A stretch of DNA of 64,000 nucleotides from Bacteroidales bacterium (GTDB lineage Bacteria > Bacteroidota > Bacteroidia > Bacteroidales > VadinHA17). The translations under genes and the position numbers were made by a program. The DNA lies in NCBI GenBank assembly GCA_016709865.1, contig JADJLX010000006.1, forward strand, positions 372,001-436,000. The letters are read 5' to 3'. Of this stretch, positions 19,110 through 64,000 are shown piece after piece (positions within the stretch are counted from its first letter, which is position 1; the number at the start of each line of letters is the position of its first letter). Below the pieces are notes generated by a model, which was not told the origin of the DNA, did not search any database, and saw only the letters and a list, made by a program, of their open reading frames with translations.

Positions 19110-19224
19110 AATTTGAATTTTTTGCAGCGTCAAGATAAAAAATTATCAAATACCAAAAACAGGTAATTGTCATGGAAGAATAAAAACCTACCTGACAGTT
19201 CACTTCGGTACTTCCCTTGTTTTT

Positions 19225-46496: not shown

Positions 46497-49400
46497 ATGA
46501 AAATATCTGAATGGTCACATAGAATTCTTTTACTCTTACCTATAGTTCTTCTCTCATGTGACAACAAAAATGAGGAAGTCTTTAATGGTATATTTTCAAA
46601 AACCGGTTCCCTGGCAACAATTCTTACTACCCCTGCCACTTCTGTTACCGACACATCAGCAGAAGCCGGAGGAAACCTGACAGATAACGGAAGCACTTAC
46701 ATAATTGCCCGTGGAATATGCTGGGGCACAGATCAGAATCCTGATACTTCTGACTTTACAATTGAAACCGGCAAAGAACCCGGCGAGTTTGTCTGCAGTA
46801 TTACCGGACTTTCAAAAGGTACACTCTATTACATGCGTGCCTATGTTTCAAATAATATTGGTACGGCTTATGGAAACCAGGAAACTTTTACTACCCTGAA
46901 TATTCCTGCAATTACCACTTCTCCTATTTCTGATATTTCAGATACTACTGCTGTCTCGGGGGGAAACATTACTGCCGATGGAGGGGTAAATGTAACAGCC
47001 AGAGGAGTCTGCTGGAGTACAAAGCAGAATCCAACAATTACAGACACTATCTCAAAGGATGGTTCCGGAAAAGGAATTTTTACAAGCTCATTGAAAAGAC
47101 TGGTCCCAAATACAACATATTATGTCAAAGCCTGGGCAACAAACAGCATTGGTACAGCTTATGGAAATGAACTGACATTTACAACAACCTCACCAACTCT
47201 TTTACTACCAACACTTACCACAACAGCAATATCGGCAATAACTCAAACTACAGCTGTGAGTGGAGGAATTATTACCAGCGATGGAGGTGCGAAGGTTACT
47301 GCACGGGGAGTATGCTGGGGTACATCTTCAAATCCGGTAGTAACCGGTTATCATTTAAATGGTGATACAATATCGGGAAATCCATCATCTTTCTCCAATT
47401 TAATATCCGGGTTAACGGCTAATACAACTTATTATGTCAGGGCTTTCGCAACTAACAGCATTGGAACTGCCTATGGAAACGAGTTTTCATTTACCACATC
47501 TGTTGCTGTAACTGTGATACCTTCTATCTCAACAAATGCGATAAGTTCAGTAACCCAAATTACCGCTACGTGCGGCGGAAATATTTCAAACGATGGAGGT
47601 GCCAATGTAACAACACGTGGAGTATGCTGGAGCACATCGCCAAATCCAACTATATCACTTACAACAAAGACATCAGATGGCACAGGTACCGGAACTTTCT
47701 CAAGTTCAATAACAGGATTAGCACCTGGTACTTTGTATTATGTGAAGGCATATGCATCGAACAGTGCCGGAACAGCTTATGGAAATGAAATAAGCTTTAC
47801 AACACTTCCGGCAACCGGAGGAACAGTAACTGATATTGACGGAAATGTTTACAATACTATAGTAATTGGCACTCAAACATGGCTAAAAGAAAACCTTAAA
47901 ACCACAAAATATAATGATGGCAGCTCAATACCTATTGTTGCCGATAATATTGTATGGAGTACACTGACTTCAGGCAGCTACTGCTGGTATGATAATGCAC
48001 CGACATTTTCAACATCCCCGTATGGGGCATTGTATAATTGGTATACAATTGATGCAACAAACAACGGGAATAAAAATATCTGCCCTACTGGATGGCATGT
48101 TCCTACCGATGGAGAGTTTACAGCTCTTGAATCATACTTAGGAGGAGTAACAATTGCAGGGGGCAGGTTAAAAGAAGTAGGAAATCTTCATTGGTTAGCT
48201 CCTAATACTGGTGCAACTAACGAGACAGGATTTACATCATTGCCTGCAGGCGGTCGGAATGAGGATGGCTCGTTTTCAAGCATGGGAGTTCAAAATTACC
48301 TGTGGAGTTCAACTGAGAATGGAACTACTTTTGCATGGGCCAGGCAAATACTTAATAATAGTACTAATTCCATTAGGATTTATTTCCTTAAGCAAAGTGG
48401 CTATTCGGTTCGTTGTATTCTGGGTACAATACAGGTATTACCATCAATATCAACAGCTTCTGTTATGAGTATAACTTCAACATCTGCTATATGCGGTGGA
48501 AATATTACATCTGATGGAGGCGCTAATGTTACCACTCGTGGTGTTTGCTGGAGCACATCTGCAAATCCAACTATTTCTGACTCAAAGACTACTGACGGAT
48601 CAGGGATCGGAACATTCAGCAGTAGCATAGGTGGACTGTCATATGCAACAACCTATCACGTACGGGCCTATGCTACAAATAGTATTGGCACTTCTTACGG
48701 GCAGGATTTAACGTTTACAACATTAAGCCCATTACCAGTTGTAACAACTTCAACAGTTACATCAATAACAAGTGTTTCTGCAGTTTCCGGAGGCGATGCT
48801 TCAAGTCCATACGGACCATTGATAACAGAACGCGGAGTCTGCTGGAACACCTCACCAAATCCAACTACAGCAAATAACAAAACGATTGATGGATCGGGAT
48901 CAGGAACATTTACAAGCACCATAACAGGATTAACTGTTTATACAACCTATTACGTAAGAGCTTACGCTACAAATGGTTCAGGCACCACATATGGAAATGA
49001 AAGGAGTTTTATAACAGCTCCAATTGGGACAACAGTTACTGATATTGATGGAAATGTTTACAATACTGTTGTAATAGGCACACAAACCTGGATGAAGGAA
49101 AACCTGAAGACAACTAAATACAGGGATGGGTCTTCTATTCCAATTGTAACTGATGATCCTATGTGGATTTCAAGTGAAAAGGATGCATACTGTTGGTTTA
49201 ATAATGATCCGGCCACATATAAAGAAGCATATGGGGGATTATATAACTACTTTGCAATTATAGATTTTAGATATCTCTGTCCTACAGGTTGGCATGTTCC
49301 AACAAACAGTGAATGGACAACTTTAACTCAATACCTGGGAGGAGAGAGTGTTGCTGGGGGAAAATTAAAAAGCATTACAGGTTGGAATAGTCCAAATACA

Positions 49401-50108
49401 GGCGCTACCAATGAATCAGGGTTCACAGCTTTAGCAGGAGGATACAGATACCACAACGGCCCATTTAGCGGTCATGGAGAATTTACAATATTTTGGAGTT
49501 CTACTGAGTATGATCTGACAAATTCATTTGACAAAATATTATATTATAATGAATCCAACTTTATGACAGGAGGATGGAACCCTAAACAAAGTGGTTTTTC
49601 TGTCCGTTGTCTTCAAGGTGAACCACTGACTCCAGCAATAGGCGACAACTATCAGGGTGGAAAAATCGCTTATATTTTCCAGCCAGGAGATAATGGTTAT
49701 ATTGCGGGTCAGATACATGGTCTGATAGCTGCACCTTCAGACCAGAGTACCAGTGCAGAATGGGGCTGTTCAGGGATGGCAATATCAGGAGCTGATGGTA
49801 CAGCAATTGGAACCGGTAATCAAAATACAATTGACATTGTGAATGGATGTACCACAACAGGTACGGCAGCAAAATTGTGTTCCGATTTGATACTTAACGG
49901 ATATAGCGACTGGTATCTCCCAAGCATTGATGATCTGAATAAATTAAACATAAACAGGATTGCAATAGGTGGATTTGCTGTTGGCTATTACTGGTCATCA
50001 ACTGAGATATCTGATATTGCCGGATGGCCCCTTGCCTTTAACACAGTCAGCATGAGCCCCAACAGTAAAAGCAGCTTATACTTCGTTCGCGCTGTTCGGA
50101 CTTTTTGA
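46497..50108 (+). CDS. Giant FN3/FISUMP surface lipoprotein, array copy A
   Basis: A 1203-residue lipoprotein. I choose ATG at 46497, whose signal ends in the lipobox LPIVLLSC; an in-frame ATG at 46476 overlaps the PEGA gene by 13 bases. After the Cys comes DNKNEEVF, with an acidic pair that may act as a surface-export signal. Module order: four FN3-like units (each with the pattern ARG(V/I)CW, TTYYVRAYATN, GTAYGNE and FTT), one FISUMP domain (47820-48424), two FN3-like units, a second FISUMP domain (49027-49620) and a C-terminal DUF1566/Lcl_C-like domain (49640-50108; SAEWGC, LCSDLILNGYSDWYLPS, YYWSSTE, YFVRAVRTF). FISUMP is the Fibrobacter succinogenes major paralogous domain and probably has a C-type-lectin-like fold. 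Role unknown; adhesion or ligand binding is inferred. Confidence 0.85.
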   Translation: MKISEWSHRILLLLPIVLLSCDNKNEEVFNGIFSKTGSLATILTTPATSVTDTSAEAGGNLTDNGSTYIIARGICWGTDQNPDTSDFTIETGKEPGEFVCSITGLSKGTLYYMRAYVSNNIGTAYGNQETFTTLNIPAITTSPISDISDTTAVSGGNITADGGVNVTARGVCWSTKQNPTITDTISKDGSGKGIFTSSLKRLVPNTTYYVKAWATNSIGTAYGNELTFTTTSPTLLLPTLTTTAISAITQTTAVSGGIITSDGGAKVTARGVCWGTSSNPVVTGYHLNGDTISGNPSSFSNLISGLTANTTYYVRAFATNSIGTAYGNEFSFTTSVAVTVIPSISTNAISSVTQITATCGGNISNDGGANVTTRGVCWSTSPNPTISLTTKTSDGTGTGTFSSSITGLAPGTLYYVKAYASNSAGTAYGNEISFTTLPATGGTVTDIDGNVYNTIVIGTQTWLKENLKTTKYNDGSSIPIVADNIVWSTLTSGSYCWYDNAPTFSTSPYGALYNWYTIDATNNGNKNICPTGWHVPTDGEFTALESYLGGVTIAGGRLKEVGNLHWLAPNTGATNETGFTSLPAGGRNEDGSFSSMGVQNYLWSSTENGTTFAWARQILNNSTNSIRIYFLKQSGYSVRCILGTIQVLPSISTASVMSITSTSAICGGNITSDGGANVTTRGVCWSTSANPTISDSKTTDGSGIGTFSSSIGGLSYATTYHVRAYATNSIGTSYGQDLTFTTLSPLPVVTTSTVTSITSVSAVSGGDASSPYGPLITERGVCWNTSPNPTTANNKTIDGSGSGTFTSTITGLTVYTTYYVRAYATNGSGTTYGNERSFITAPIGTTVTDIDGNVYNTVVIGTQTWMKENLKTTKYRDGSSIPIVTDDPMWISSEKDAYCWFNNDPATYKEAYGGLYNYFAIIDFRYLCPTGWHVPTNSEWTTLTQYLGGESVAGGKLKSITGWNSPNTGATNESGFTALAGGYRYHNGPFSGHGEFTIFWSSTEYDLTNSFDKILYYNESNFMTGGWNPKQSGFSVRCLQGEPLTPAIGDNYQGGKIAYIFQPGDNGYIAGQIHGLIAAPSDQSTSAEWGCSGMAISGADGTAIGTGNQNTIDIVNGCTTTGTAAKLCSDLILNGYSDWYLPSIDDLNKLNINRIAIGGFAVGYYWSSTEISDIAGWPLAFNTVSMSPNSKSSLYFVRAVRTF
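46569..46906 (+). repeat. 338-bp conserved 5' cassette, copy A
   Basis: Starts just after the lipobox and ends at the end of the first FN3-like module. The same 338-bp length and nearly the same sequence occur at 50229-50566, 54203-54540 and 58774-59111. Signal peptides upstream of it differ between the four genes. Confidence 0.85.
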
Positions 50109-50150
50109 ATGGATTGAAGTAGTTATGATATCAGTCTTATATTTTACTAA

Positions 50151-53100
50151 ATGTTTCTGAACCTGAAATATATCACCAACAGAATTCTGATACTAATAAT
50201 ATTACTACTTATCTCGTGCAGCAATGAGAATGAAGAGGTATTTAATGGCATATTTTCAAAAAATGGTTCTCTGGCGACAATTCTTACTATCCCTGCCACT
50301 TCTGTTACTGATACATCAGCAGAAGCCGGAGGAAACCTGACTGATAACGGAAGCACTTACATAATTGCCCGTGGAATATGTTGGAGCACAGATCAGAATC
50401 CTGATACTTCTGACTTTAAAATTGAAGCCGGGAAAGAAACCGGAGAGTTTGTTTGTAGTATTACAAGACTTTCAAAAGGTACAATCTATTACATGCGTGC
50501 CTATGTTTCAAATAATATTGGAACTGCATATGGGAACCAGGAATCTTTTACTACCCTGAATATTCCGACAATTACCACTTCTCCAGTAATATCAATAACT
50601 GATTCAAGTGCAATGGTTGGGGGAGAAATAACAGCGGACGGAGGTACTCCTGTGCTATTCCGTGGAATTTGCTGGAACAGATTACAGAATCCGACTCTTG
50701 CTGATTCTCTCTTTTTGGCTCAAGGTTCAGGAACTGGAATTTATTCCAGATTATTAAATAAATTACTGCCTAACACAACGTATTATGTAAGAGCTTACGC
50801 CACCAATCGTGTTGGGACAGCTTATGGAAATGAACTGACATTTACAACAACCTCACCAACTCTTTTACTACCAACACTTACCACAACAACAATATCGGCA
50901 ATAACTCAAACTACAGCTGTGAGTGGCGGAAATATTACAAGCGATGGAGGTGCAACTGTTACCGCAAGGGGAGTTTGTTGGAGCTCTTTCCCTAATCCAA
51001 CGATAGCACTAACTACGATATCATCTGATGGAAACGGATCAGGTTCTTTTACAAGTTCAATAACCGGATTAACTCCTGCAACTCTATATTATGTAAGAGC
51101 ATATGCTACGAATAGTGCCGGTACTGCTTATGGGGGCGAAGTTACTTTTACTACCAGTTCTGGAGCGACAACAATTCCTTCCCTGAATACTGAGACTGTT
51201 ACTTCAATTACGCAAACCAGCGCTAAAAGTGGAGGAAATATTATAAGTAACGGAGGAGGGACAATAACCTCCAGCGGAGTATGCTGGAGCACATCTGCCT
51301 TTCCAACCATAGCTCTGTCAACAAAGACAGTAGATGTTCCTGCTGCAGGATTGATAATGAGCTCTCTAACAGGATTAACTCCAAACACGCTTTATTATGT
51401 CAGAGCCTACGCAACTAACAGTATAGGAACTGGTTATGGAAATCAGATTAGTTTTGCAACACTTTCATCCGGTAGTTCAACAGTAACTGATATTGATGGA
51501 TATGTTTACAATACAGTAGTTATTGGTACTCAGACATGGATGAAAGAAAATCTTCGGACAACCCGATTCAGAAATGGTGCAACAATTGCAAATCTTACCG
51601 ATGGAGCAGCATGGATTGTTACAGATTCAAGTGCATATTGTTGGTATAATAACGATATAGTCAATAAAAACCCCTTTGGTGCATTATATAATTTCAGTAC
51701 AGTTGTTGATGGTCGTTACCTTTGTCCTTCTGGATGGCATGTCCCAACTGATGCTGAATGGACAATACTTACTGACTATTTAGGTGGTGAGAACTTAGCT
51801 GGTGGTAAACTAAAAGAAGCAGGTACTACTCACTGGGTTAGTCCAAATACAGGCGCAGACAACAGCACTGGATTCACCGGACTTCCTGCAGGCGTTAGAA
51901 CAGATTATGGTGCTTTTATCGAATCGGGAACTTTTGGTTCGTTTTGGTCTGTAAATGAGAACTCTCCCTCAAGCACTGCTGCATGGAGGAGGTTTTTTAC
52001 TTCCACAGAATCCGGTTTTATCAGACAAACAGAGGGCAAAATTGACGGAATGAGTGTAAGATGTCTGCAAGGAGAAGGACCGGTTTATGCCCTTGTTAAG
52101 TCTGTAACAACAACTGTCCTTTCATCCACATCTGGTTTAAGTGGAGGGATTATTATTTCTGATGGGGGATCTTCTATTATTGCACGAGGCGTTTGTTGGA
52201 GTACAAGTCAAAAACCAGTTGTCGCTCTGCCTACTGTCACATCTGATGGTGCAGGAACAGGTACTTTCTCAAGCACGATTACAGGTTTAAGTCCCTCAAC
52301 AAAGTATTATGTTAGAGCCTATGCAACAAATAGTCTGGGCACGTCTTATGGACCTGAAATGAGTTTTACCACAAATCCTGCAGGTCCATCCCTTCCAACA
52401 ATAACAACTAATGCAGTTTCTGAAATTCTTGACAGATCTGCAAAAAGTGGCGGAAACCTTGTCAGTGATGGAGGCGATCCAATAGTTGCAACAGGCGTCT
52501 GTTGGAGCATAAACCCAAATCCAACAATAATCAATAATAAAACTACAGGTATTCTGGGAGTTTTTACAAGTTTGTTAACAGGACTTGTACAAGGCACAAC
52601 ATATTATGTGCGAGCATATGCAACAAATAGCGTTGGAACTGGTTATGGCAACGAAGTAAGTTTTAAAACTCTTGATATAGCTTCCATTGTTACATCAGGT
52701 TTATCAGCAGTAACTCAAACATCTGCAACTTGCGGCGGAAATGTGATAAATGATGGCGGGGCACCTGTCACGGGAAGGGGATTATGCTGGAATACAACAC
52801 CAAATCCAACCATAATGAATAGTAAAACCTCAGATGGAACCGGGAGTGGAATCTTTGTAAGTTCATTGACCGGATTGACTTCAGGAACTACATATTATGT
52901 CAGATCATACGCTACAAACTTTGTTGGAACAGCTTATGGTAATGAGATAAGTTTTACAACACTCCCTCTTGTAGGTTCCACTGTAACTGACATTGATGGA
53001 AATGTATATAACACAATAACAATAGGAACGCAAACCTGGTTGAAAGAAAATCTGAAAACCACAAAATTCCGTGACGGAACAGCCATTGCATACGGGTCTG

Positions 53101-54071
53101 ATCCGGCTACATGGAATGCTTATAGTAATTTAAATACAGCTGCTTACTGCTGGTACAACGATGATTTAAATAATAAAAACATATATGGGGCACTATATAA
53201 TTTTCATTCAGTAATAGATGGACACAAACTTTGCCCTACGGGTTGGCATGTACCAGCAAATGCTGAATGGACCGTACTTGAAAACTACATTGGGGGAAGC
53301 AGTTTTGGTGGAGGGAAGCTAAAGGAATCTGGCACTGCACACTGGTTGACACCTAATACCGGAGCTACTGATGAGTATGGATATTCAGCTCTTCCAGGTG
53401 GATATCGTAGTAGTACTGGTGGATTTACTGGAATTGGTAATGGAGGTTACTACTGGAGTTCAACTGAGAATCCAGTTTCTATTTGTTATGGCAGATATTT
53501 GAGTTATATGTCAGTTTTAATTGAGACTGCACCAGCTGCGGGCCCAAGAGGAACAGGGTTTTCTGTAAGGTGCCTTCAGGGCGAACCTGCGCCTCTTGCA
53601 ATAGGCGATTGCTACCAGGGCGGAATTGTAGCCTACATTTTTCAATCTGGCGATCCGGGATTTGTATCTGGTGAAACACATGGCCTTATTGCTGCTCCAA
53701 GCGATCAGAGTACGTCTGCAGAATGGGGCTGCGTTGGGATAAGTATTAGTGGTGCTGATAGTACCGGACTAGGAAGAGGTAACCAGAATACAATCGACAT
53801 TTTGAATGGTTGTGCAACCGCTGGTACAGCAGCAAAAATTTGCAGTGATCTGGTCTTAAACGGTTATAATGACTGGTATCTGCCAAGCAGAGATGAGCTA
53901 AACAAGTTATACTTAAGTAAAGAAAAAATTGGAGCTTTTACATTAAATTTTTATTGGAGCTCTAGCGAGTTCGGCATTGGCCATTCCTGGTACCAGCACT
54001 TCTTTAACGGTACACAGGGAAATGTTAACAAAGATAACTTAGCCAATGTACGAGCTATCCGATCCTTCTAA
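50151..54071 (+). CDS. Giant FN3/FISUMP surface lipoprotein, array copy B
   Basis: A 1306-residue paralog of copy A, 42 bases downstream. The signal ends in LIILLLISC followed by SNENEEVF. Module order: four FN3-like units, FISUMP (51478-52080), three FN3-like units, FISUMP (52978-53585) and the C-terminal DUF1566/Lcl_C-like domain (53600-54071; SAEWGC, KICSDLVLNGYNDWYLPSRD, FYWSSSE, NVRAIRSF). The second FN3-like unit (ADGGTPVLFRGICWNRLQNP) differs from that of copies A, C and D, while the module linker that follows is almost identical to copy A, indicating a mosaic origin. A near-match promoter (ATTG, 21 bases, TATATTTT) lies in the short gap, but no terminator separates it from copy A. Confidence 0.85.
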   Translation: MFLNLKYITNRILILIILLLISCSNENEEVFNGIFSKNGSLATILTIPATSVTDTSAEAGGNLTDNGSTYIIARGICWSTDQNPDTSDFKIEAGKETGEFVCSITRLSKGTIYYMRAYVSNNIGTAYGNQESFTTLNIPTITTSPVISITDSSAMVGGEITADGGTPVLFRGICWNRLQNPTLADSLFLAQGSGTGIYSRLLNKLLPNTTYYVRAYATNRVGTAYGNELTFTTTSPTLLLPTLTTTTISAITQTTAVSGGNITSDGGATVTARGVCWSSFPNPTIALTTISSDGNGSGSFTSSITGLTPATLYYVRAYATNSAGTAYGGEVTFTTSSGATTIPSLNTETVTSITQTSAKSGGNIISNGGGTITSSGVCWSTSAFPTIALSTKTVDVPAAGLIMSSLTGLTPNTLYYVRAYATNSIGTGYGNQISFATLSSGSSTVTDIDGYVYNTVVIGTQTWMKENLRTTRFRNGATIANLTDGAAWIVTDSSAYCWYNNDIVNKNPFGALYNFSTVVDGRYLCPSGWHVPTDAEWTILTDYLGGENLAGGKLKEAGTTHWVSPNTGADNSTGFTGLPAGVRTDYGAFIESGTFGSFWSVNENSPSSTAAWRRFFTSTESGFIRQTEGKIDGMSVRCLQGEGPVYALVKSVTTTVLSSTSGLSGGIIISDGGSSIIARGVCWSTSQKPVVALPTVTSDGAGTGTFSSTITGLSPSTKYYVRAYATNSLGTSYGPEMSFTTNPAGPSLPTITTNAVSEILDRSAKSGGNLVSDGGDPIVATGVCWSINPNPTIINNKTTGILGVFTSLLTGLVQGTTYYVRAYATNSVGTGYGNEVSFKTLDIASIVTSGLSAVTQTSATCGGNVINDGGAPVTGRGLCWNTTPNPTIMNSKTSDGTGSGIFVSSLTGLTSGTTYYVRSYATNFVGTAYGNEISFTTLPLVGSTVTDIDGNVYNTITIGTQTWLKENLKTTKFRDGTAIAYGSDPATWNAYSNLNTAAYCWYNDDLNNKNIYGALYNFHSVIDGHKLCPTGWHVPANAEWTVLENYIGGSSFGGGKLKESGTAHWLTPNTGATDEYGYSALPGGYRSSTGGFTGIGNGGYYWSSTENPVSICYGRYLSYMSVLIETAPAAGPRGTGFSVRCLQGEPAPLAIGDCYQGGIVAYIFQSGDPGFVSGETHGLIAAPSDQSTSAEWGCVGISISGADSTGLGRGNQNTIDILNGCATAGTAAKICSDLVLNGYNDWYLPSRDELNKLYLSKEKIGAFTLNFYWSSSEFGIGHSWYQHFFNGTQGNVNKDNLANVRAIRSF
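50229..50566 (+). repeat. 338-bp conserved 5' cassette, copy B
   Basis: Same cassette as in copies A, C and D, with the most substitutions of the four by eye (for example TCAGAATCC-TGATACTTCTGACTTTAAA and AATCTTTTACTACC). Confidence 0.8.
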
Positions 54072-54124
54072 TACTACAAAATATCTCATGGGAGAATTTA
54101 GTACTAAGTAGTTGAAATATTTCA

Positions 54125-57100
54125 ATGCAGAAAAAAGAGATTCATATTAAACTCATATTGTTAATACTTTCAATGTTTCTCCTTCTCTCATGCGATAGTA
54201 AAAACGAGGAAGTATTTAATGGCATATTTTCCAAAAATGGCTCACTGGCAACAATTCTTACTACCCCTGCCACTTCTGTTACCGACACATCAGCAGAGGC
54301 CGGAGGAAACCTGACTGATAACGGAAGCACATACATAATTGCCCGTGGAATATGCTGGGGTACAGATCAGAATCCTGATACTTCTGACTTTACAATTGAA
54401 ACCGGCAAAGAACCCGGCGAGTTTGTCTGCAGTATTACCGGACTTTCAAAAGGTACACTCTATTACATGCGTGCCTATGTTTCAAATAATATTGGTACGG
54501 CTTATGGAAACCAGGAAACTTTTACTACCCTGAATATTCCTACAATTACCACTGCTTCTATTTCAAATATTACTGATACCACTGCCATCTCAGGTGGAAA
54601 TATCACAGCCGACGGAGGGGTTAATATAACAGCCAGAGGAGTCTGCTGGAGTACAAAGCAGAATCCAACAATTGCAGACACTATCTCAAAGGATGGTTCC
54701 GGTAAAGGAATTTTCACAAGTTCATTGAAAAAACTGGTTCCAAATACAACATATTATGTCAAAGCCTGGGCAACAAACAGCATTGGTACAGCTTATGGCA
54801 ATGAACTTGCATTTACAACAACTTCACCAGCCCCTGTACTCCCTTCAATTACCACAACAACAATATCGGCAATAACTCAATCTTCAGCAGTAAGCGGGGG
54901 AAACATCACAAGTAATGGAGGAGCAACGGTAACATCTAGTGGAATTTGCTGGGGTACTTCACCTTCACCCACAATTGCATTGACATCGAAAACAACAGAC
55001 GGTCTGGCTACAGGAGCATTTGCAGGTTCTCTGACAGGATTAACAGCAAACACTACGTATTATATTAGATCTTATGCAACAAACAGCGTTGGTACAGCAT
55101 ACGGAAATGAAATTAGCTTTACAACATTGCCTGCAACTGGAGGAACAGTAACTGATATTGATGGTAATGTATACAATACAGTTACAATTGGCACACAAAT
55201 TTGGATGAAGGAAAACCTGAAAACAACAAGATACAGAGATGGGAGCATCATCCCTTATGAACCAGACAAAACATTATGGTATGCATTGTCTTCCGGTGCA
55301 TACTGCTGGTATAATAATGATCAGGCGACCTATAAAGAAACTTATGGCGGATTGTATAATTTTTATGCAACGGTTGATAACCGTAACCTCTGTCCAAATG
55401 GATGGCATGTACCAACTAATGCTGAGTGGACAGCTCTAACTGACTTTCTGGGAGGAACATCCGTCTCTGGTGGAAAACTAAAAGAAGCCGGCACTTCACA
55501 TTGGCTGAATCCAAACACTGGAGCTACAAACGAAACAGGCTTTGCAGCATTACCTGGGGGATATCGTTACAATCCTGAAAATTACACATTCATTGGAAGT
55601 ACTGGTTTTTGGTGGAGTTCGACAGAAAGTTCTCTCTCAAATTCATGGTTAAGGTTTTTAAGTAGTGATAATCCATATGTTAGTGAGTCAAGCTGGGATA
55701 AGAGATATGGCTACTCTGTTCGTTGTATACAAGGTGAGGGACAGGTATTGGCGGCTGTTTCAACGACAAACATTGTTTCTATAACTCAAACTACTGCCTC
55801 AACCGGGGGTATTGTTAACAATAACGGAGGATCACCTGTAACAGCAACAGGTATTTGCTGGAGCACTTTTACAAACCCTACAATTGCGTTGTCTACAAAG
55901 ACATCAGATGTACCTGCTGCTGGAGTATTTATTAGTTCCATTACCGGATTAAATGCAAATACCACTTATTATGTTAGAGCCTATGCAACTAACAGCGTTG
56001 GAACAGCTTATGGAAATGAACAAATATTTTCTACATCAGCCCCAGCAACCTACCCTACTCTCTCAACAACAGCAATTTCGTCCATAACTCCATATTCTGC
56101 ATCCGGAGGAGGAAATATTTCAAGTGATGGAGGATCATCAGTAGTAAGCCGCGGTGTTTGCTGGAACTTATCTCCAGCACCGACAATAAACAATTTCAAG
56201 AGTACTGATGGTTCAGGCATTGGAAATTTTGCCAGCAACATTACTACCTTAAACGCTAATACAACATATTATGTACGTGCTTATGCAACAAATAGTGCTG
56301 GAACAGCTTATGGTAATGAGATTAGCTTTACAACTTTGCCTGCTACAGGAGGAACGGTTACTGACATTGATGGAAATACATACAATACTGTAATTATCGG
56401 CACCCAGACCTGGATGAGGGAAAATCTGAAAACGACCAGATACAGTGATGGGATAGCTATTTCAAATGTTACAGATAACAGTGCCTGGAGTTTGCTTACA
56501 TCCGGAGCTTATTGCTGGTGGGTTAACGATCAGGCAACCTATAAAGCAACTTATGGTGCCTTATACAATTACTATGCAATTGATAATAAAAACCTTTGTC
56601 CGATAGGATGGCATGTTCCAACACATTCTGAGTGGACAACATTAACATCTTATCTGGGGGGGGAAAGTATTGCTGGCAGCAAACTAAAGGAAACAGGAAA
56701 TACCCACTGGATGAGCTATAATACCGATGCAACAAATGAATCAGGCTTTACAGCAATTCCGGGCGGCTATAGGGTAACTGATGGAAATTTCATGAATCTT
56801 GGAGCTATTGGATACTGGTGGTCTTCAACAGACTTTTCTGGCTCCAGCTCATGGGGAAGATTAATCCTTCATATTAATACCATGGTAAGCAGTAATTACT
56901 TCAATAAGGTAAGTGGATTTTCGGTTCGTTGCCTACAGGGTGAAACCGTTGTTCTTCCAGGCATTATGACAACAAATCCAACTGTATATAACACTTCAGT
57001 GAGTACAGGCGGTAATCTTCTTACAACCGGGGGAGGAGTAATTACCGACATGGGTGTATGCTGGAGTACAAGTCCAAATGTAACAATCAGTTCAGGTTCA

Positions 57101-58633
57101 AAATCTTCAGCAGGGACAACTGCTTTGGGATTCTTTACAATTCCAATTCCATCACTTACACCATTAACTACATACTACATTAAAGCATATGCAACAAATT
57201 CAGCTGGTACGGGTTATGGAGTAGAGTTCAGTTTTACTACAGGCGATGGTTTACCTTCAGTTTCAACAACTTCAATTTCAGGTATATCCAACACTTCTGC
57301 ATCATCGGGGGGAACAATAACAACACTTGGTAACGTCTCAGCCAACACTAGAGGTGTTTGCTGGAGCACCACTACAAACCCAACAATTGCTAATTCAAAA
57401 ACAACTGATGGTTCGGGTGCAGGAATATTTACCAGCAGCATTACCGGACTAAGTGCAAACACAACTTATTATGTAAGAGCTTATGCAACTAATATTGTTG
57501 GAACTGCATATGGAAATGAAATAAGTTTTACTACGCTCTCTCAAAGCAGCGGTACAGTAACTGATATTGATGGCAATGTTTACAATACAGTTATAATCGG
57601 CACACAAATCTGGATGAAAGAAAACCTTAAGACAACTAAATACAGGGATGGAAGCTCTGTTCAAAATGTTACAGATAACACTGCATGGAGTTTACTTACA
57701 TCCGGAGCTTATTGTTGGTTGCTTAACGATCAGGCAACTTATAAAGCTTCTTATGGTGCAATATATAATTATTATGCATTCGAGAATAGAAATCTTTGTC
57801 CGACTGGTTGGCATGTTCCTACTGAATCTGAGTGGACAACTTTAACCTCCTATCTGGGAGGAGAAAATATAGCTGGAGGCAAATTAAAAGAAGCAGGCAC
57901 TGATCATTGGCAAACACCAAATACAGGAGCAACCAACGAGACTGCCTTCACAGCTCTTCCTGGTGGATACAGGGCCCCCGATCTTGGACTTTTCTATAGT
58001 CTTGGGAGTTACGGCTACTGGGCAAGTTCAACAGAGAAATCACTTTCTTTAATGTGGGGATATTATTTGAACTACAATAATTCATTTCTATTCAGCCTCA
58101 ACCTCGATAAACGTGGAGGTTATTCTGTCAGATGTCTGCAGGGCGAACCTGCTCCTCTTGCAGTTGGTGATAACTATAAGGGCGGAAAAATAGCTTACAT
58201 TTTTCAGCCAGGTGATAATGGTTATGTTGTCGGCCAGGTACATGGTCTTATTGCTGCTCCAGGCGATCAGAGTACTGGAGCCGAATGGGGATGTAATGGA
58301 ACTAACCTAACTGGAGCTGATAGTACAGGATTGGGAAAAGGGAATCAGAATACAATTGACATTGTTACTGGTTGTGCAACCGCTGGTACAGCAGCAAAAA
58401 TTTGCAGCGATCTGGTTTTAAGTGGCTACAGTGACTGGTATCTGCCAAGCAGAGACGAATTGAACAAGTTATACTTGAACCAGTCTGCCATTGGGGGCTT
58501 TAGCACTTCTGTTTACTGGAGCTCCAGTGAATACAATGAATTCGCGGCTTCAACTGTGGCATTTGGACCAGGAGGGATAAGTAACGTCTTCAAATATGAA
58601 ACCCACTACGTTCGTGCTGTCCGCTCTTTTTAG
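54125..58633 (+). CDS. Giant FN3/FISUMP surface lipoprotein, array copy C
   Basis: A 1502-residue paralog, 53 bases after copy B. The signal ends in LSMFLLLSC followed by DSKNEEVF. Module order: three FN3-like units, FISUMP (55140-55740), two FN3-like units, FISUMP (56350-56945), two FN3-like units, FISUMP (57550-58145), then the DUF1566/Lcl_C-like domain (58165-58633; GAEWGC, KICSDLVLSGYSDWYLPSRD, VYWSSSE, YVRAVRSF). FISUMP hallmarks in each copy are TVTDIDGN-x-YNTV-x-IGTQ, W-x-(K/R)ENLKTT, CP-x-GWHVPT-x-x-EWT, and YSVRC(L/I)QGE near the end. It has one FISUMP domain more than copies A and B. Function unknown. Confidence 0.85.
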   Translation: MQKKEIHIKLILLILSMFLLLSCDSKNEEVFNGIFSKNGSLATILTTPATSVTDTSAEAGGNLTDNGSTYIIARGICWGTDQNPDTSDFTIETGKEPGEFVCSITGLSKGTLYYMRAYVSNNIGTAYGNQETFTTLNIPTITTASISNITDTTAISGGNITADGGVNITARGVCWSTKQNPTIADTISKDGSGKGIFTSSLKKLVPNTTYYVKAWATNSIGTAYGNELAFTTTSPAPVLPSITTTTISAITQSSAVSGGNITSNGGATVTSSGICWGTSPSPTIALTSKTTDGLATGAFAGSLTGLTANTTYYIRSYATNSVGTAYGNEISFTTLPATGGTVTDIDGNVYNTVTIGTQIWMKENLKTTRYRDGSIIPYEPDKTLWYALSSGAYCWYNNDQATYKETYGGLYNFYATVDNRNLCPNGWHVPTNAEWTALTDFLGGTSVSGGKLKEAGTSHWLNPNTGATNETGFAALPGGYRYNPENYTFIGSTGFWWSSTESSLSNSWLRFLSSDNPYVSESSWDKRYGYSVRCIQGEGQVLAAVSTTNIVSITQTTASTGGIVNNNGGSPVTATGICWSTFTNPTIALSTKTSDVPAAGVFISSITGLNANTTYYVRAYATNSVGTAYGNEQIFSTSAPATYPTLSTTAISSITPYSASGGGNISSDGGSSVVSRGVCWNLSPAPTINNFKSTDGSGIGNFASNITTLNANTTYYVRAYATNSAGTAYGNEISFTTLPATGGTVTDIDGNTYNTVIIGTQTWMRENLKTTRYSDGIAISNVTDNSAWSLLTSGAYCWWVNDQATYKATYGALYNYYAIDNKNLCPIGWHVPTHSEWTTLTSYLGGESIAGSKLKETGNTHWMSYNTDATNESGFTAIPGGYRVTDGNFMNLGAIGYWWSSTDFSGSSSWGRLILHINTMVSSNYFNKVSGFSVRCLQGETVVLPGIMTTNPTVYNTSVSTGGNLLTTGGGVITDMGVCWSTSPNVTISSGSKSSAGTTALGFFTIPIPSLTPLTTYYIKAYATNSAGTGYGVEFSFTTGDGLPSVSTTSISGISNTSASSGGTITTLGNVSANTRGVCWSTTTNPTIANSKTTDGSGAGIFTSSITGLSANTTYYVRAYATNIVGTAYGNEISFTTLSQSSGTVTDIDGNVYNTVIIGTQIWMKENLKTTKYRDGSSVQNVTDNTAWSLLTSGAYCWLLNDQATYKASYGAIYNYYAFENRNLCPTGWHVPTESEWTTLTSYLGGENIAGGKLKEAGTDHWQTPNTGATNETAFTALPGGYRAPDLGLFYSLGSYGYWASSTEKSLSLMWGYYLNYNNSFLFSLNLDKRGGYSVRCLQGEPAPLAVGDNYKGGKIAYIFQPGDNGYVVGQVHGLIAAPGDQSTGAEWGCNGTNLTGADSTGLGKGNQNTIDIVTGCATAGTAAKICSDLVLSGYSDWYLPSRDELNKLYLNQSAIGGFSTSVYWSSSEYNEFAASTVAFGPGGISNVFKYETHYVRAVRSF
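54203..54540 (+). repeat. 338-bp conserved 5' cassette, copy C
   Basis: Nearly identical to the copy A cassette. The identity with copy D continues through the next 190 bases (54541-54730 against 59112-59301), where I count a single difference. Confidence 0.85.
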
Positions 58634-58695
58634 TTATTATTGTATTCTCTTGAAATTCAAATTAAAAATGCAAGATTTGAACCGATTATTAAATA

Positions 58696-61600
58696 ATGCC
58701 TGAAAGCTCCAAACATATTACACTCAAACTTCTGATTATTATACTGTTACTCATTCTCTCATGCGGCAAAGAGAATGAGGAAGTTTTTAATGGTATATTT
58801 TCAAAAAATGGTTCTCTGGCAACAATTCTTACTACCCCTGCCACTTCTGTTACCGACACATCCGCAGAAGCCGGAGGAAACCTGACAGATAACGGAAGCA
58901 CCTACATAATTGTACGGGGTATATGCTGGAGTACAGACCAAAATCCTGATACTTCTGACTTTAAAATTGAAACCGGTAAAGAACCCGGCGAGTTTACTTG
59001 CAGTATTACCGGACTTTCAAAGGGTACAGTCTATTACATGCGTGCCTATGTTTCAAATAATATTGGTACAGCTTATGGAAACCAGGAAACTTTTACTACC
59101 CTGAATATTCCTACAATTACCACTGCTTCTATTTCAAATATTACTGATACCACTGCCATCTCAGGTGGAAACATCACAGCCGACGGAGGGGTTAATATAA
59201 CAGCCAGAGGAGTCTGCTGGAGTACAAAGCAGAATCCAACAATTGCAGACACTATCTCAAAGGATGGTTCCGGTAAAGGAATTTTCACAAGTTCATTGAA
59301 AAGACTGGTCCCAAATACTACCTATTTTGTTAGAGCTTATGCTACTAACATTGTTGGTACAGCTTATGGAAATGAACTTGTTTTTGCAACTACTTCAGCA
59401 ACTACCGGACTACCTGTAATCAGCACAACAGAAATAACGGATGTTACACAAACTACTGCAATAAGCGGCGGAAATATTACCAGTGCAGGAGTCTCAAATG
59501 TCACCGCAAGAGGTGTTTGTTGGGGTATTTCTCCAAGTCCTACAATTTCCAACAGCATAGCATCAGGGGGTCTTGGCAATGGATCATTCTCAAGTGCAAT
59601 TACTGGATTAAATCCTGGTACATTATATTATGTCAGGGCGTATGCAACGAACACTGCTGGTACTGCCTATGGAAATGAATTAAGTTTTACTACACTGTCG
59701 CCCGGTGGCGCAACAGTTACTGATATAGATGGTAATGTATATAACACAATTACTATTGGAACACAGATCTGGATGAAGGAAAACCTGAAGACTACCAGAT
59801 ACAGGGATGGAAGTGCTATTCCAAATATTACTGATAACACTGCCTGGGGGAATCTTACTTCAGGAGCATACTGTTGGTATAACAACGATCAGGCAGCTTA
59901 TAAAGCTACCTATGGTGCGTTGTATAATTTTTATACAACAACAGATAGCCGGAATCTTTGTCCAACTGGCTGGCATGTTCCAACCCATGCTGAATGGACA
60001 ACCCTTACTACCTATTTAGGAGGGGAAAATGTTGCAGGAGGAAAGATGAAGAGTGTTTCAGGTTGGACCATCCCGAACACAGGAGCCTCAAATGTATCGG
60101 AGTTCACAGCTCTGCCGGGTGGATACCGTTATTACATTGGTGGTTCTTTCAACAACCTTGGAGGCACAGGTGACTGGTGGACCTCTACAGTGAGCACAAC
60201 TGCTGAGGCTTTTAGCAGGCGCTTGAATTATTCGGAAATGGGCGTAAGTTGGGGAGTCCCCGATTTTAGAAATGGATACTCTGTTCGTTGCCTTCAGGGG
60301 GAAATGCAATATTTACCCACTGTTTCAACAACTTCTGTTTCAGCTGTAACTCAAACTACAGCTACAGCCGGCGGTAACATAACGAACAATGGAGGAGCTG
60401 CTATCACTACACGAGGAGTTTGCTGGAGCTCATTGCCTGCTCCCACAATAGCACTAACAACAAAAACATCAGATGGCAGCGGATCTGGTTCTTTTACAAG
60501 TTCAATCACAGGATTATCACCCGGAACAATATATTATGTGAGAGCTTATGCAACAAATAGTGTCGGGACAGCTTATGGAAATGAATTAAGCTTTACTACT
60601 GGTTCTGGTGCTCCAACAGGTCCATCTTTAACGACAACACAAATAACTTCAATAACGCAAACTACCGCGTCATCTGGTGGCAGTATTACCACTGACGGAG
60701 GAGCCAACATTACTGCAAAAGGTGTCTGCTGGAGTACTTCCCAAAATCCAACAATTGCATTGACAACAAAAACCATTGACGGAACAGGCACCGGAACATT
60801 CTCAAGTTCAATTACAGGATTAACAGCAAATACAAAATACTATGTAAGGGCTTATGCAACAAACAGCATAAGTACTTCTTATGGCAATGAGATTAGTTTT
60901 ACCACGTCTCTTGTAAGTACTGGAACTGTGACTGATATAGATGGTAATAAATACGATACTGTATATATAGGTACGCAGACCTGGCTGAAGCAAAATCTGA
61001 AAACTACTAGGTACCGTGACGGTACAGCAATCCCCAATATGACAACTAATCCGGGATGGTCATCCAATGGAGCGTCTTTTACCGGGGCTTATTGCTGGCA
61101 TAACAATGATATAAATAATAAAAATGAATATGGAGCCCTTTACAATTATTATACAGTTGTAGATGGACATAAACTCTGCCCTTTTGGATGGCATGTCCCC
61201 AAAGTAGAAGAATGGACTACTCTGATAAATAATCTTGGAGGAACAGCAAATGCCGGAGGTGCATTAAAGGAAGCCGGATTTACTCATTGGTTAAATCCCA
61301 ATCTGTTCGCGACAAACAGCAGCAGTTTTACTGCACTGCCGGGAGATCAGCGTTTCAATGATGGCACAATGATGTCTTTAGGTTCAAATGGTAACTGGTG
61401 GAGTTCTTCCCCCTCCGTTTTTCAGACAGACAGCGCTTACAGATATAATCTTAATTATAATTCCAGTTATATCATCAGTAATCCGTCAGCCAAATCATAT
61501 GGCTATTCAGTACGGTGTATCCAGGGAGAAGGTATCGTTCTGCCGGTTATTAGTCCTGAACCTACAATGTATGGATCATCAACCACAGGTATAAGTGGTG

Positions 61601-64000
61601 GTAATATCACATCAGACGGTGGTTCTCCTGTTACAGTGAGAGGACTTTGTTACAGTACCGGTATCAATCCAACAACCGCACTCGCAACTAAAACAATTAA
61701 TGGATCAGGAACAGGTGCATATACAACAACTATAACGGGATTAAATCCAAATACGACCTATTATGTGAGAGCATATGCAACAAATAGTGTTGGCACAGCC
61801 TACGCTACTCAGGTTAGTTTTACAACACCATCTTCAACAGTTCCGGTAATAACAACAACCTCTATTTCAGCTGTAACCTCTTCATCAGCTTCCTCAGGAG
61901 GAACAATTTCCTCAAATGGAGGATCAGCAATAACCGAATCCGGAGTTATATGGAGTCTTTCACCTAATCCCACCATAGCTTTGACTACAAGGACAACAAC
62001 AAGCTCAACAACTTCTTTCACAAGTAGTCTTACAGGATTAACTCCAAGCACAACTTATTATGTGCGGGCTTATGCCACTAATAATACGGGTACAGGTTAT
62101 GGAAATGAAGTTACTTTTACAACATTGACTGCAACCGGAGGAACTGTAACTGACATTGATGGAAATGTATATAATACAGTCATAATTGGTACTCAAACTT
62201 GGATGGCTGAAAACTTGAAAACCACCAAGTACAGAGATGGAAGTTCAATAACAAATATTACCGATAATATAGCATGGGGTTTGCTGACTTCAGGAGCATA
62301 CTGCTGGTACAACAATGATCAGGCAACCTATAAAGCCTCATTTGGTGCTCTATATAATTTTTACACGACTGTGGATAACCGTAATCTTTGTCCAACAGGA
62401 TGGCATGTTCCTACTGATGCTGAGTGGACTACACTAGCTACCTTCCTGGGAGGAGAAAGTATTGCAGGAGGAAAACTTAAAGAAGCCGGAACAATTCATT
62501 GGATGAGCCCTAACACTGGAGCAACAAACGAAACAGGATTTAATGGTCTTCCATGGAGTTACCGTGAAAAAATTGGAGCATTCCAAATTATCGGATACGG
62601 TGCGTACTGGTGGAGTTCCACACAAAGTACAAGTAATACGGGATGGGGAAGAAATTTAACCAGCACTAGCACTTATATAAACAGAAGCAGTTATTATCCT
62701 GAAAATGGATTTTACATTCGATGCCTGCAAGGAGAGGGCCAGGTATTGCCTGCGGTTACAACTAATACAACCACAGTAACCAATACTTCAATAAGTACTG
62801 GCGGAAATGTCACCTCCGATGGTGGTTCATCAGTTACAGAGAGGGGCATCTGTTGGAGTACAACTTTGAATCCAACTATTGAATTAAGCTCAAAAATTTC
62901 GAGTGGTACAGGGACAGGTAATTTCTATGTTGGAATACCTCTGTTAACCCCATTGACAACTTTTTATTTCCGCGCTTATGCAACAAATTCTGTTGGAACT
63001 GCATATGGAGCCAATGAAACTGTTACGACTGGGACAGGAATACCTCCGGTTACAACAACTGCGATAACAGGGATTACAACCAACTCAGCAATTTCTGGTG
63101 GAGATGTAGGATCGTCAGGTGGAGAAACAGCAACAACAAGGGGTGTTTGCTGGAGCACTTCAGTGAATCCAACTGTTACAGATTCAAAGACAATTGATGG
63201 GTCAGGTAATGGCTCTTTTGTCAGTAATATAACAGGTCTTTCACCAGGAACAACTTATCATGTTAGGGCTTATGCAACAAACAATAATGGTATAGGCTAT
63301 GGATCTGATGTCTCATTTACTACTAACACAGATCTTCCAACAGTTACCACAACAGCTGTAACTTCAATAATATATATGGGAGCTACTTCAGGCGGTAATG
63401 TAACTTGGGATGGCGGATCAACATTATATTCTCGGGGTGTATGCTGGAATACAACTGGCAATCCAACCATCGCTGACTCTAAAACCGTTGATGGAACCGG
63501 AACAGGGACATACACCAGCACAATAACTGGATTAATTCCCAGCACTACTTATCATGTTCGTGCCTATGCAACTAATTCAGCTGGAACATCATACGGTGCA
63601 GATCTATCATTCACAACAACAGATGGATTACCAACTGCCACAACCTCTCCAATATCTGGAATAACAACAATTTCTGCTGTGTCGGGTGGAGATGTTACTT
63701 GTCCCTTTGGTCCATCAATCACCGCACGGGGAATCTGCTGGGGTACCACAACAAATCCTGCAATAACTGGTAATAAAACCACAGATGGTTCCGGGTCGGG
63801 AGGATTTACCAGTTCATTAACAGGACTTACGGCCAACACAACTTATTATGTCAGAGCCTATGCAACGAATATTCTGGGTACAACATATGGTAATGAAATC
63901 ACCTTTACGACTAACGGGACAGTTACCGATATTGAAGGTAATATTTATAATACAATTTCCATTGGAACACAAATATGGATTAAAGAAAACTTAAAAACAA
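58696..64000 (+). CDS. Giant FN3/FISUMP surface lipoprotein, array copy D (partial, runs off the right edge)
   Basis: Open from ATG at 58696 to the window end, at least 1768 codons without a stop; I checked the frame at several points. The signal is MPESSKHITLKLLIIILLLI ending in a lipobox LILSC, then GKENEEVF. Module order seen: three FN3-like units, FISUMP (59708-60303), two FN3-like, FISUMP (60920-61535), two FN3-like, FISUMP (62140-62745), four consecutive FN3-like units, and the start of a fourth FISUMP (63918 onward: TVTDIEGNIYNTISIGTQIW). The DUF1566-like end is presumably outside the window. One FISUMP copy is atypical (LGGTANAGGALKEAGFTHW and a FATNSSSFTALPGDQ segment). It starts 62 bases after copy C with no terminator between. 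Confidence 0.85.
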   Translation, partial: MPESSKHITLKLLIIILLLILSCGKENEEVFNGIFSKNGSLATILTTPATSVTDTSAEAGGNLTDNGSTYIIVRGICWSTDQNPDTSDFKIETGKEPGEFTCSITGLSKGTVYYMRAYVSNNIGTAYGNQETFTTLNIPTITTASISNITDTTAISGGNITADGGVNITARGVCWSTKQNPTIADTISKDGSGKGIFTSSLKRLVPNTTYFVRAYATNIVGTAYGNELVFATTSATTGLPVISTTEITDVTQTTAISGGNITSAGVSNVTARGVCWGISPSPTISNSIASGGLGNGSFSSAITGLNPGTLYYVRAYATNTAGTAYGNELSFTTLSPGGATVTDIDGNVYNTITIGTQIWMKENLKTTRYRDGSAIPNITDNTAWGNLTSGAYCWYNNDQAAYKATYGALYNFYTTTDSRNLCPTGWHVPTHAEWTTLTTYLGGENVAGGKMKSVSGWTIPNTGASNVSEFTALPGGYRYYIGGSFNNLGGTGDWWTSTVSTTAEAFSRRLNYSEMGVSWGVPDFRNGYSVRCLQGEMQYLPTVSTTSVSAVTQTTATAGGNITNNGGAAITTRGVCWSSLPAPTIALTTKTSDGSGSGSFTSSITGLSPGTIYYVRAYATNSVGTAYGNELSFTTGSGAPTGPSLTTTQITSITQTTASSGGSITTDGGANITAKGVCWSTSQNPTIALTTKTIDGTGTGTFSSSITGLTANTKYYVRAYATNSISTSYGNEISFTTSLVSTGTVTDIDGNKYDTVYIGTQTWLKQNLKTTRYRDGTAIPNMTTNPGWSSNGASFTGAYCWHNNDINNKNEYGALYNYYTVVDGHKLCPFGWHVPKVEEWTTLINNLGGTANAGGALKEAGFTHWLNPNLFATNSSSFTALPGDQRFNDGTMMSLGSNGNWWSSSPSVFQTDSAYRYNLNYNSSYIISNPSAKSYGYSVRCIQGEGIVLPVISPEPTMYGSSTTGISGGNITSDGGSPVTVRGLCYSTGINPTTALATKTINGSGTGAYTTTITGLNPNTTYYVRAYATNSVGTAYATQVSFTTPSSTVPVITTTSISAVTSSSASSGGTISSNGGSAITESGVIWSLSPNPTIALTTRTTTSSTTSFTSSLTGLTPSTTYYVRAYATNNTGTGYGNEVTFTTLTATGGTVTDIDGNVYNTVIIGTQTWMAENLKTTKYRDGSSITNITDNIAWGLLTSGAYCWYNNDQATYKASFGALYNFYTTVDNRNLCPTGWHVPTDAEWTTLATFLGGESIAGGKLKEAGTIHWMSPNTGATNETGFNGLPWSYREKIGAFQIIGYGAYWWSSTQSTSNTGWGRNLTSTSTYINRSSYYPENGFYIRCLQGEGQVLPAVTTNTTTVTNTSISTGGNVTSDGGSSVTERGICWSTTLNPTIELSSKISSGTGTGNFYVGIPLLTPLTTFYFRAYATNSVGTAYGANETVTTGTGIPPVTTTAITGITTNSAISGGDVGSSGGETATTRGVCWSTSVNPTVTDSKTIDGSGNGSFVSNITGLSPGTTYHVRAYATNNNGIGYGSDVSFTTNTDLPTVTTTAVTSIIYMGATSGGNVTWDGGSTLYSRGVCWNTTGNPTIADSKTVDGTGTGTYTSTITGLIPSTTYHVRAYATNSAGTSYGADLSFTTTDGLPTATTSPISGITTISAVSGGDVTCPFGPSITARGICWGTTTNPAITGNKTTDGSGSGGFTSSLTGLTANTTYYVRAYATNILGTTYGNEITFTTNGTVTDIEGNIYNTISIGTQIWIKENLKT
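58774..59111 (+). repeat. 338-bp conserved 5' cassette, copy D
   Basis: Fourth copy of the cassette. It differs from the others at a few positions, for example ATTGTACGGGG where the others have ATTGCCCGTGG, so the encoded motif is VRGICW instead of ARGICW. Confidence 0.85.

Follow-up and report, generated by a model that had tools for sequence, protein, structure and literature searches.

Organization of the array

The window, that is, the whole stretch of 64,000 nucleotides analysed here, closes with four adjacent + strand genes that a sequence-only reading had given as 1203, 1306, 1502 and more than 1768 residues long, as the open reading frames and Pfam confirm. The g1 gene (46497..50108, +; two starts are given, 46476 and 46497) encodes a lipoprotein of 1203 residues, equal in sequence to the database protein P0127, with 6 FN3-like modules, 2 FISUMP domains and an Lcl_C domain in the order F4[M]F2[M]L (F, FN3-like; M, FISUMP; L, Lcl_C). 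It is followed by the lipoprotein genes g2 (50151..54071, +; 1306 residues, 7 FN3-like, 2 FISUMP and Lcl_C, F4[M]F3[M]L) and g3 (54125..58633, +; 1502 residues, 7 FN3-like, 3 FISUMP and Lcl_C, F3[M]F2[M]F2[M]L), and by g4 (58696..64000, +), which reads F3[M]F2[M]F2[M]F4[M within the window, is cut in its last FISUMP domain and runs past the window end. The window totals 31 FN3-like modules and 10 complete FISUMP domains. Extension to the right, which had been proposed as a check, is provided by P0103 (492,912-base contig), the complete g4 lipoprotein of 1942 residues, the first 1767 of which equal the window translation. It comprises 11 FN3-like modules and 4 FISUMP domains, supplies the 11th FISUMP domain of the array and places the calculated g4 end at 64524; its C-terminus is a FISUMP domain (...GFSVRCLKD), and PF07603 is not among its listed domains.

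The intergenic gaps measure 42 nt (g1-g2), 53 nt (g2-g3) and 62 nt (g3-g4), and a terminator scan (23 sites in total vs 12.7 +/- 3.6 in shuffles) reports no terminator-like site in these spacers. The earlier description of terminator-free spacers stands in this respect, with the addition of weak hairpins inside the final codons of g1 (50085-50101) and those of the gene preceding it (46438-46455). This preceding gene, P0005 (45139..46488, +), encodes a PEGA protein and stops 8 nt upstream of g1. The array had been read as beginning with g1; the four genes are as described, and the cluster seems to begin one gene earlier, at 45139, with P0005 as the probable first gene of a five-gene unit that is probably co-transcribed.

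By eye, g1-g4 all exhibit a lipobox-type N-terminus followed by NEEVFNG, which bears out the EEVF motif noted after the cysteine. Residues +2 to +7 after this cysteine are DNKNEE, SNENEE, DSKNEE and GKENEE. The available text of PMC5080379 gives C-X-K-(D/E)2-X as the optimal lipoprotein export signal, and the paired negative charges of the array proteins, at +6/+7, lie away from that optimum. Of the proposal that these are surface-displayed binding proteins, the lipobox is seen in all four, and surface display is plausible. The window also encodes, on the - strand (36166-38784), a protein in which a lamin-tail domain is accompanied by a CHU_C type IX secretion signal; type IX secretion is thus probably present in the organism, and the array proteins bear a lipoprotein signal instead.

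Family and predicted fold of the heads

The HMM searches identify the repeated units as FISUMP domains in g1-g4 and as Lcl_C in g1-g3. PF09603 (Pfam, 273-409 bits) and TIGR02145 (NCBIfam FISUMP, 214-317 bits) both score above cut-off in all four proteins, and PF07603 (Lcl_C) covers the C-termini of g1-g3 with 55.5, 49.5 and 59.4 bits for a cut-off of 34.9, so that the DUF1566/Lcl_C-like end ascribed to the three complete genes holds. The g4 protein has no C-terminal Lcl_C, its only PF07603 match being internal and below this cut-off (24.3 bits). The FISUMP structure is predicted with a pLDDT of 97.5. Among the structural neighbours listed for it, the majority are C-type lectins or lectin-like domains of adhesins and of targets of diversity-generating retroelements (DGRs), at modest Z values (<=8.0); the domain is thus predicted to adopt a C-type-lectin-like fold. 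The model and its neighbours support a lipoprotein family built of FN3-like stalks and lectin-like heads, and stalk length and head number do vary, as had been suggested, since FN3-like and FISUMP counts differ among the genes. The g1-g3 caps also resemble the C-terminal domain of Legionella Lcl (8q4e), with a phmmer E-value of 6.2e-10 for g3. Unlike Legionella Lcl, however, the array proteins contain no collagen repeats according to Pfam and have an FN3-like stalk, and their scores against NCBIfam adhesin_Lcl (35-51 bits) are far below the cut-off of 500.

DGRs in relatives

According to the available parts of the literature, Fib_succ_major and DUF1566 are DGR target domains (PMC4159848), a DGR may have several variable repeats (PMC6642488) and annotated VR-containing regions systematically exhibit a C-type-lectin fold (PMC8144416). 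The array heads, likewise predicted to be C-type-lectin-like, resemble the DGR variable proteins with DUF1566, FGE-sulfatase or Fib_succ_major domains covered by the accessible text of these three papers.

Among ten genomes bearing a P0005-type gene that were searched for RVT_1, seven return matches. An ungapped scan of the examined loci reports three adenine-biased pairs in G218, one in G025 and three in G200, and none in the examined loci of G048, G116 and G006; the three G200 pairs, all in L066, are low-complexity repeats and were discarded. In L071 (G218), the template (2277-2465) and the variable repeat (992-1180) are of FISUMP type and differ at 19 positions, all 19 being A in the template. 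The L070 template, from the same genome, matches a FISUMP variable repeat on another contig (L086) with 23 of 25 mismatches at A. The remaining pairs, L074 in G218 and L080 in G025, belong to another head type. The reverse transcriptases (RTs) adjoining four FISUMP-type templates (L070, L071, L076 and L077) contain IGNLTSQ, which we take to be the DGR-type form of the RT motif. Compared with the L070 template, of which A makes up 0.33, mismatches fall at A in 20/36 and 26/41 cases for two heads of an 886-residue G218 protein and in 25/42 for a stop-bearing stretch of contig C122; the fraction is 0.42 for the L071 variable repeat, 0.38 and 0.30 for two further heads on contig C12 and 0.13 for template against template. 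We read these values as a gradient from active to faded copies. In the G218 genome (contigs C87, C237 and C279), RT matches number six and adenine-biased template/variable-repeat pairs at least three (two FISUMP, one other). The FISUMP head that bears the remote L086 repeat (G218:C201), apparently active, precedes a weak PKD match, so that this repeat is seemingly not C-terminal.

Variation of the heads

Across the ten FISUMP modules of the window (45 pairs), pN/pS amounts to 0.11-0.46 for columns 1-150, 0.65-0.76 for columns 151-195 and 0.48 for columns 196-207, and the three Lcl_C pairs give 0.24-0.27 for the core vs 0.48-0.59 for the tail, all these values being rough as synonymous sites are near saturation. 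Examples of the hypervariable tails are that of the third FISUMP domain of g3 (57971..58138, +, start approximate), which aligns with the L070 and L071 templates and corresponds to the DGR variable repeat of a relative, and that of the g3 Lcl_C (58496..58630, +; domain residues 113-157). When these two G218 templates are aligned to 11 heads, the ten of the window and one from P0103, the mean entropy is 2.47 at AAY columns vs 1.05 at codons without A at positions 1-2 (p = 1.1e-6), and 2.54 vs 1.24 with the second template (p = 4.8e-6). With ten heads and both templates, 19/21 AAY columns are hypervariable, vs 12/41 others (p = 7.4e-6). The variation of the heads is located in their C-terminal tail, at the codons that the apparently active DGR of a relative rewrites, and their variable face coincides in this way with the AAY codons of FISUMP templates in that relative.

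A DGR leaves the third base of AAY unchanged, and rewritten codons therefore end in C or T. At the AAY columns, 72/111 codons do so, vs 56.6 expected (z 3.03; z 2.46 with a stricter background), while control columns give z 0.52 (variable, outside the tail) and z 0.36 (variable non-AAY, within the tail). Serine is encoded as AGY in 25/35 cases at AAY columns vs 51/133 elsewhere (p = 5.6e-4), these codon tests assuming an independence of codons that does not hold, and AGY arising also by ordinary Asn-to-Ser change. The same footprint reaches z 4.25 in G218 (16 heads, active copies included), 4.09 in G048 and 3.03 in G200, and 0.65, -0.27 and -0.78 in G025, G116 and G084, relatives with only 2-3 heads. 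Its link with DGR presence is no more than suggestive, since G048 shows the footprint and no DGR-type RT was found there. This weak codon footprint fits AAY-rich ancestors of DGR type for the array heads.

The window itself returns none of the elements of a DGR. No RVT match is found among 36 of its 49 ORFs of at least 100 residues, the other 13 being short and overlapping (longest, 259 residues); none of 1069 repeat alignments is an adenine-biased template/variable-repeat pair; tblastn reports nothing template-like beyond the array itself (best E 0.80); and the window heads have no recent template in common. As no RT, template or adenine-biased copy was found in the window, the array is not presented here as a DGR target. 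Unlike DGR variable proteins, moreover, the array carries heads that are mostly internal, numerous and anciently diverged.

The strongest competing explanation, which we hold to be a serious contender at somewhat less than an even chance, retains the lectin-like array and assigns its tail variation to causes independent of any DGR, namely an exposed ligand loop that diverged by ordinary mutation while selection was relaxed or diversifying. Many C-type-lectin-like domains vary on this same face. The results from the window and from G048, as well as the near-saturated synonymous divergence, are in keeping with this explanation, whereas the concentration of variable tail columns in the AAY columns of the relative and the confinement of the excess of C/T-ending codons to these columns argue against it. 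A DGR that is still active at another site of the genome, e.g. just past g4, might rewrite some of the heads, the likeliest being the FISUMP at the g4 C-terminus or the Lcl_C tails. The terminal FISUMP of g4 occupies a place typical of variable repeats, a G218 template matches a FISUMP variable repeat on another contig, where PKD follows the head, and both DUF1566 (Lcl_C) and Fib_succ_major are among the targets listed in the available text of PMC4159848; we nevertheless deem this improbable, as nothing was found in the window and its heads share no recent template.

P0005, a probable partner gene

The P0005 protein comprises a signal peptide, a conserved N-terminal domain, two PEGA repeats (Pfam) and a C-terminal barrel-like region. 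Foldseek analysis of the latter, a low-confidence region of the model (residues 331-449, pLDDT 50-73), reports OmpA (1bxw, rank 23, probability 1.00, E 0.09) and OmpX (1qj9, rank 40, probability 0.99, E 0.22). The P0005 C-terminus is a probable OmpA/OmpX-like β-barrel, possibly eight-stranded, and the protein a probable outer-membrane partner of the lipoproteins. Matches to P0005 occur in 29/295 genomes of the order and 3/395 of the class. Among 96 other homologs, a hand count of precomputed Pfam domains gives FISUMP in the same protein for 14 and FGE-sulfatase for 31.

The neighbourhoods of 27 P0005-type genes were surveyed in 25 loci, a non-random sample chosen from the better-scoring places. 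Six genes (L052, L062, L075, L107, L108 and one gene of L116) have a Pfam-confirmed FISUMP, Lcl_C or FGE gene within two genes downstream, the FISUMP match of L062 being broken by stops. Eight further ORFs (L065, L066, L109, L110, L112, one gene each of L114 and L116, and L118) end, by eye, in a region resembling an FGE domain. Neither association is seen for 13, at least three of which (L102, L104 and L105) are near contig ends and one of which (L100) is followed by a PKD/Kelch/FN3 protein. In other Bacteroidales, FISUMP, Lcl_C or FGE domains thus often lie downstream of a P0005-type gene or form a fusion with it. In L107 and L108, the P0005-type gene is followed by Listeria-Bacteroides-repeat proteins with an Lcl_C cap, so that partner and cap are shared and the stalk differs. 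Single ORFs of L063 (8736-10613) and L064 (183-2087) contain three tandem matches to the P0005-type barrel region, which is odd for an outer-membrane barrel.

Relatives and known systems

Long FN3-like/FISUMP proteins are ordinary in the phylum, where the architecture of the array proteins is widespread: 7257 of 7996 scored candidates match P0003 at E <= 0.001, some via FN3-like repeats alone, and 86 of the 120 P0003 matches listed carry PF09603 (hand count). The array domains match the FISUMP (Fibrobacter succinogenes major paralogous domain) families of Bacteroidota (PF09603, TIGR02145) far above cut-off; the array differs in its four tandem genes with gene-converted N-termini, behind a PEGA/OmpA-like gene. 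A look for the same array in related genomes had been proposed, and L069 (G025) does contain a row of four FN3-like genes on one strand, of which two encode a FISUMP head. In contrast with g1-g4, no exact tract is found within the L069 genes, the sole repeat of at least 24 nt lying outside them, and no P0005-type gene was found in that locus. A FISUMP protein is among the Fibrobacter cell-envelope proteins tabulated in the accessible part of PMC4619616; the literature search, within the text it made available, returned no description of a function for FISUMP proteins, nor of a tandem FISUMP array or a PEGA partner.

The g3 N-terminal block retrieves 233 proteins, and among the best 120 of these only the array proteins exceed 55% identity. 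A scan of genome contigs with the same block yields a single relative from 116 candidate stretches, L009 (Marinilabilia sp. UBA5340), in which a lipoprotein has a stalk of these FN3-like modules and belongs to a gene run with SusC/SusD-like proteins, one gene apart (names by reading translations). Such modules are also those of SusE/SusF lipoproteins and BT0360-type arabinanase N-termini (L009; partial NF049889 matches below cut-off), and the array might accordingly serve nutrient binding as SusE/SusF do, its stalks offering glycan-binding domains to a transporter. We consider this role unlikely. Unlike those of SusE/SusF, the array heads are FISUMP domains; no SusC/SusD adjoins the array on its left, where P0005, an aldo/keto reductase and a tRNA are located, and the TonB-dependent plug protein and SusD of the window are encoded on the opposite strand, at 12.2-17.3 kb.

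Gene conversion of the N-termini

The N-terminal block of g1 (46611..47225, +) contains conversion tracts in common with g3 and g4, and at its end also with g2. It matches g3 exactly over 180 nt from 46728 and g2 over 72 nt from 47154, while the g3 block (54245..54798, +) matches g4 exactly over 101 nt from 54500 and 130 nt from 54602. The longest exact tracts of the array are of 180, 130, 101, 72 and 59 nt, and exact repeats of at least 40 nt are confined to this block, at corresponding positions. Within the tracts, third codon positions are 95-100% identical for g1-g3 and g3-g4; they are 39-60% identical between array genes in the signal-peptide columns and 35-53% identical between FISUMP copies (45 pairs). 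The longest run of shared polymorphic sites, compared with 2000 permutations, is significant for g3-g4 (run of 53, 0/2000), g1-g2 (18, 0/2000), g1-g4 (18, 0/2000) and g1-g3 (21, 4/2000), and does not exceed the permutations for g2-g3 (916/2000) and g2-g4 (264/2000). The N-termini of g1-g4 are homogenised by gene conversion. Module shuffling, to which the variable architecture had been attributed, finds no support as a recent process because internal modules have no long identical tracts in common, recombination being that of the N-terminal block. An assembly artefact or a recently collapsed repeat, which the nearly identical N-terminal blocks might evoke, is very improbable because FISUMP copies match at so few third positions, signal peptides and Lcl_C copies being strongly diverged as well and all reading frames of g1-g4 open.

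A model for the array

The explanation that we favour as a whole, and to which we give about an even chance, is a surface repertoire of DGR-descended heads, duplicated and diverged, on gene-converted anchors. The five-gene unit would produce a protein with PEGA repeats and an OmpA-like barrel together with four surface lipoproteins, each made up of a long FN3-like stalk with two to four FISUMP heads and, in three of them, a lectin-like Lcl_C cap. The heads would combine a fixed scaffold with one variable face, the C-terminal tail. They most likely would descend from FISUMP domains once rewritten by a DGR at template adenines, the variants being later fixed and diverging through ordinary substitution in tandem duplicates, while gene conversion would keep the anchor-proximal N-termini alike. 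The cell would in this way keep a standing repertoire of heads with which to attach to glycans, particles, cells or phages. Architecture, predicted fold, site of variation, gene conversion and the neighbour or fusion association in relatives have direct support; DGR ancestry, co-transcription, surface exposure and ligand binding by the heads we infer. A more specific version, which we put forward only tentatively, likens the array to a germ-line repertoire: a DGR would have seeded the heads, tandem duplication would have stored them on polycistronic multi-headed stalks with gene-converted anchors, and the PEGA/OmpA-like protein would be a dedicated partner. New here are the finding that head variation falls on the face open to DGR mutation, the codon footprint, fossil-like in character, and the recurrence of the partner gene. 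Bacteroidota are very rich in FISUMP proteins, and tying these to a predicted lectin-like fold, a relative's DGR and a PEGA/OmpA-like partner suggests for them a function that can be tested, namely variable surface recognition. A further idea is that ordinary tandem gene arrays may serve to bank diversity made by a DGR.

Two minor observations may be added. A viral contig of 164,446 bases (L005/L007) has FISUMP-type matches at both ends and an RT at 17 kb, and is possibly a phage with a FISUMP-type target. The window contents are Bacteroidota-like (SusD, a TonB-dependent plug protein, the CHU_C type IX secretion-signal protein), and one ORF (17577-19133, -) combines a NapC/NirT cytochrome N-terminal region with an FGE-sulfatase domain.
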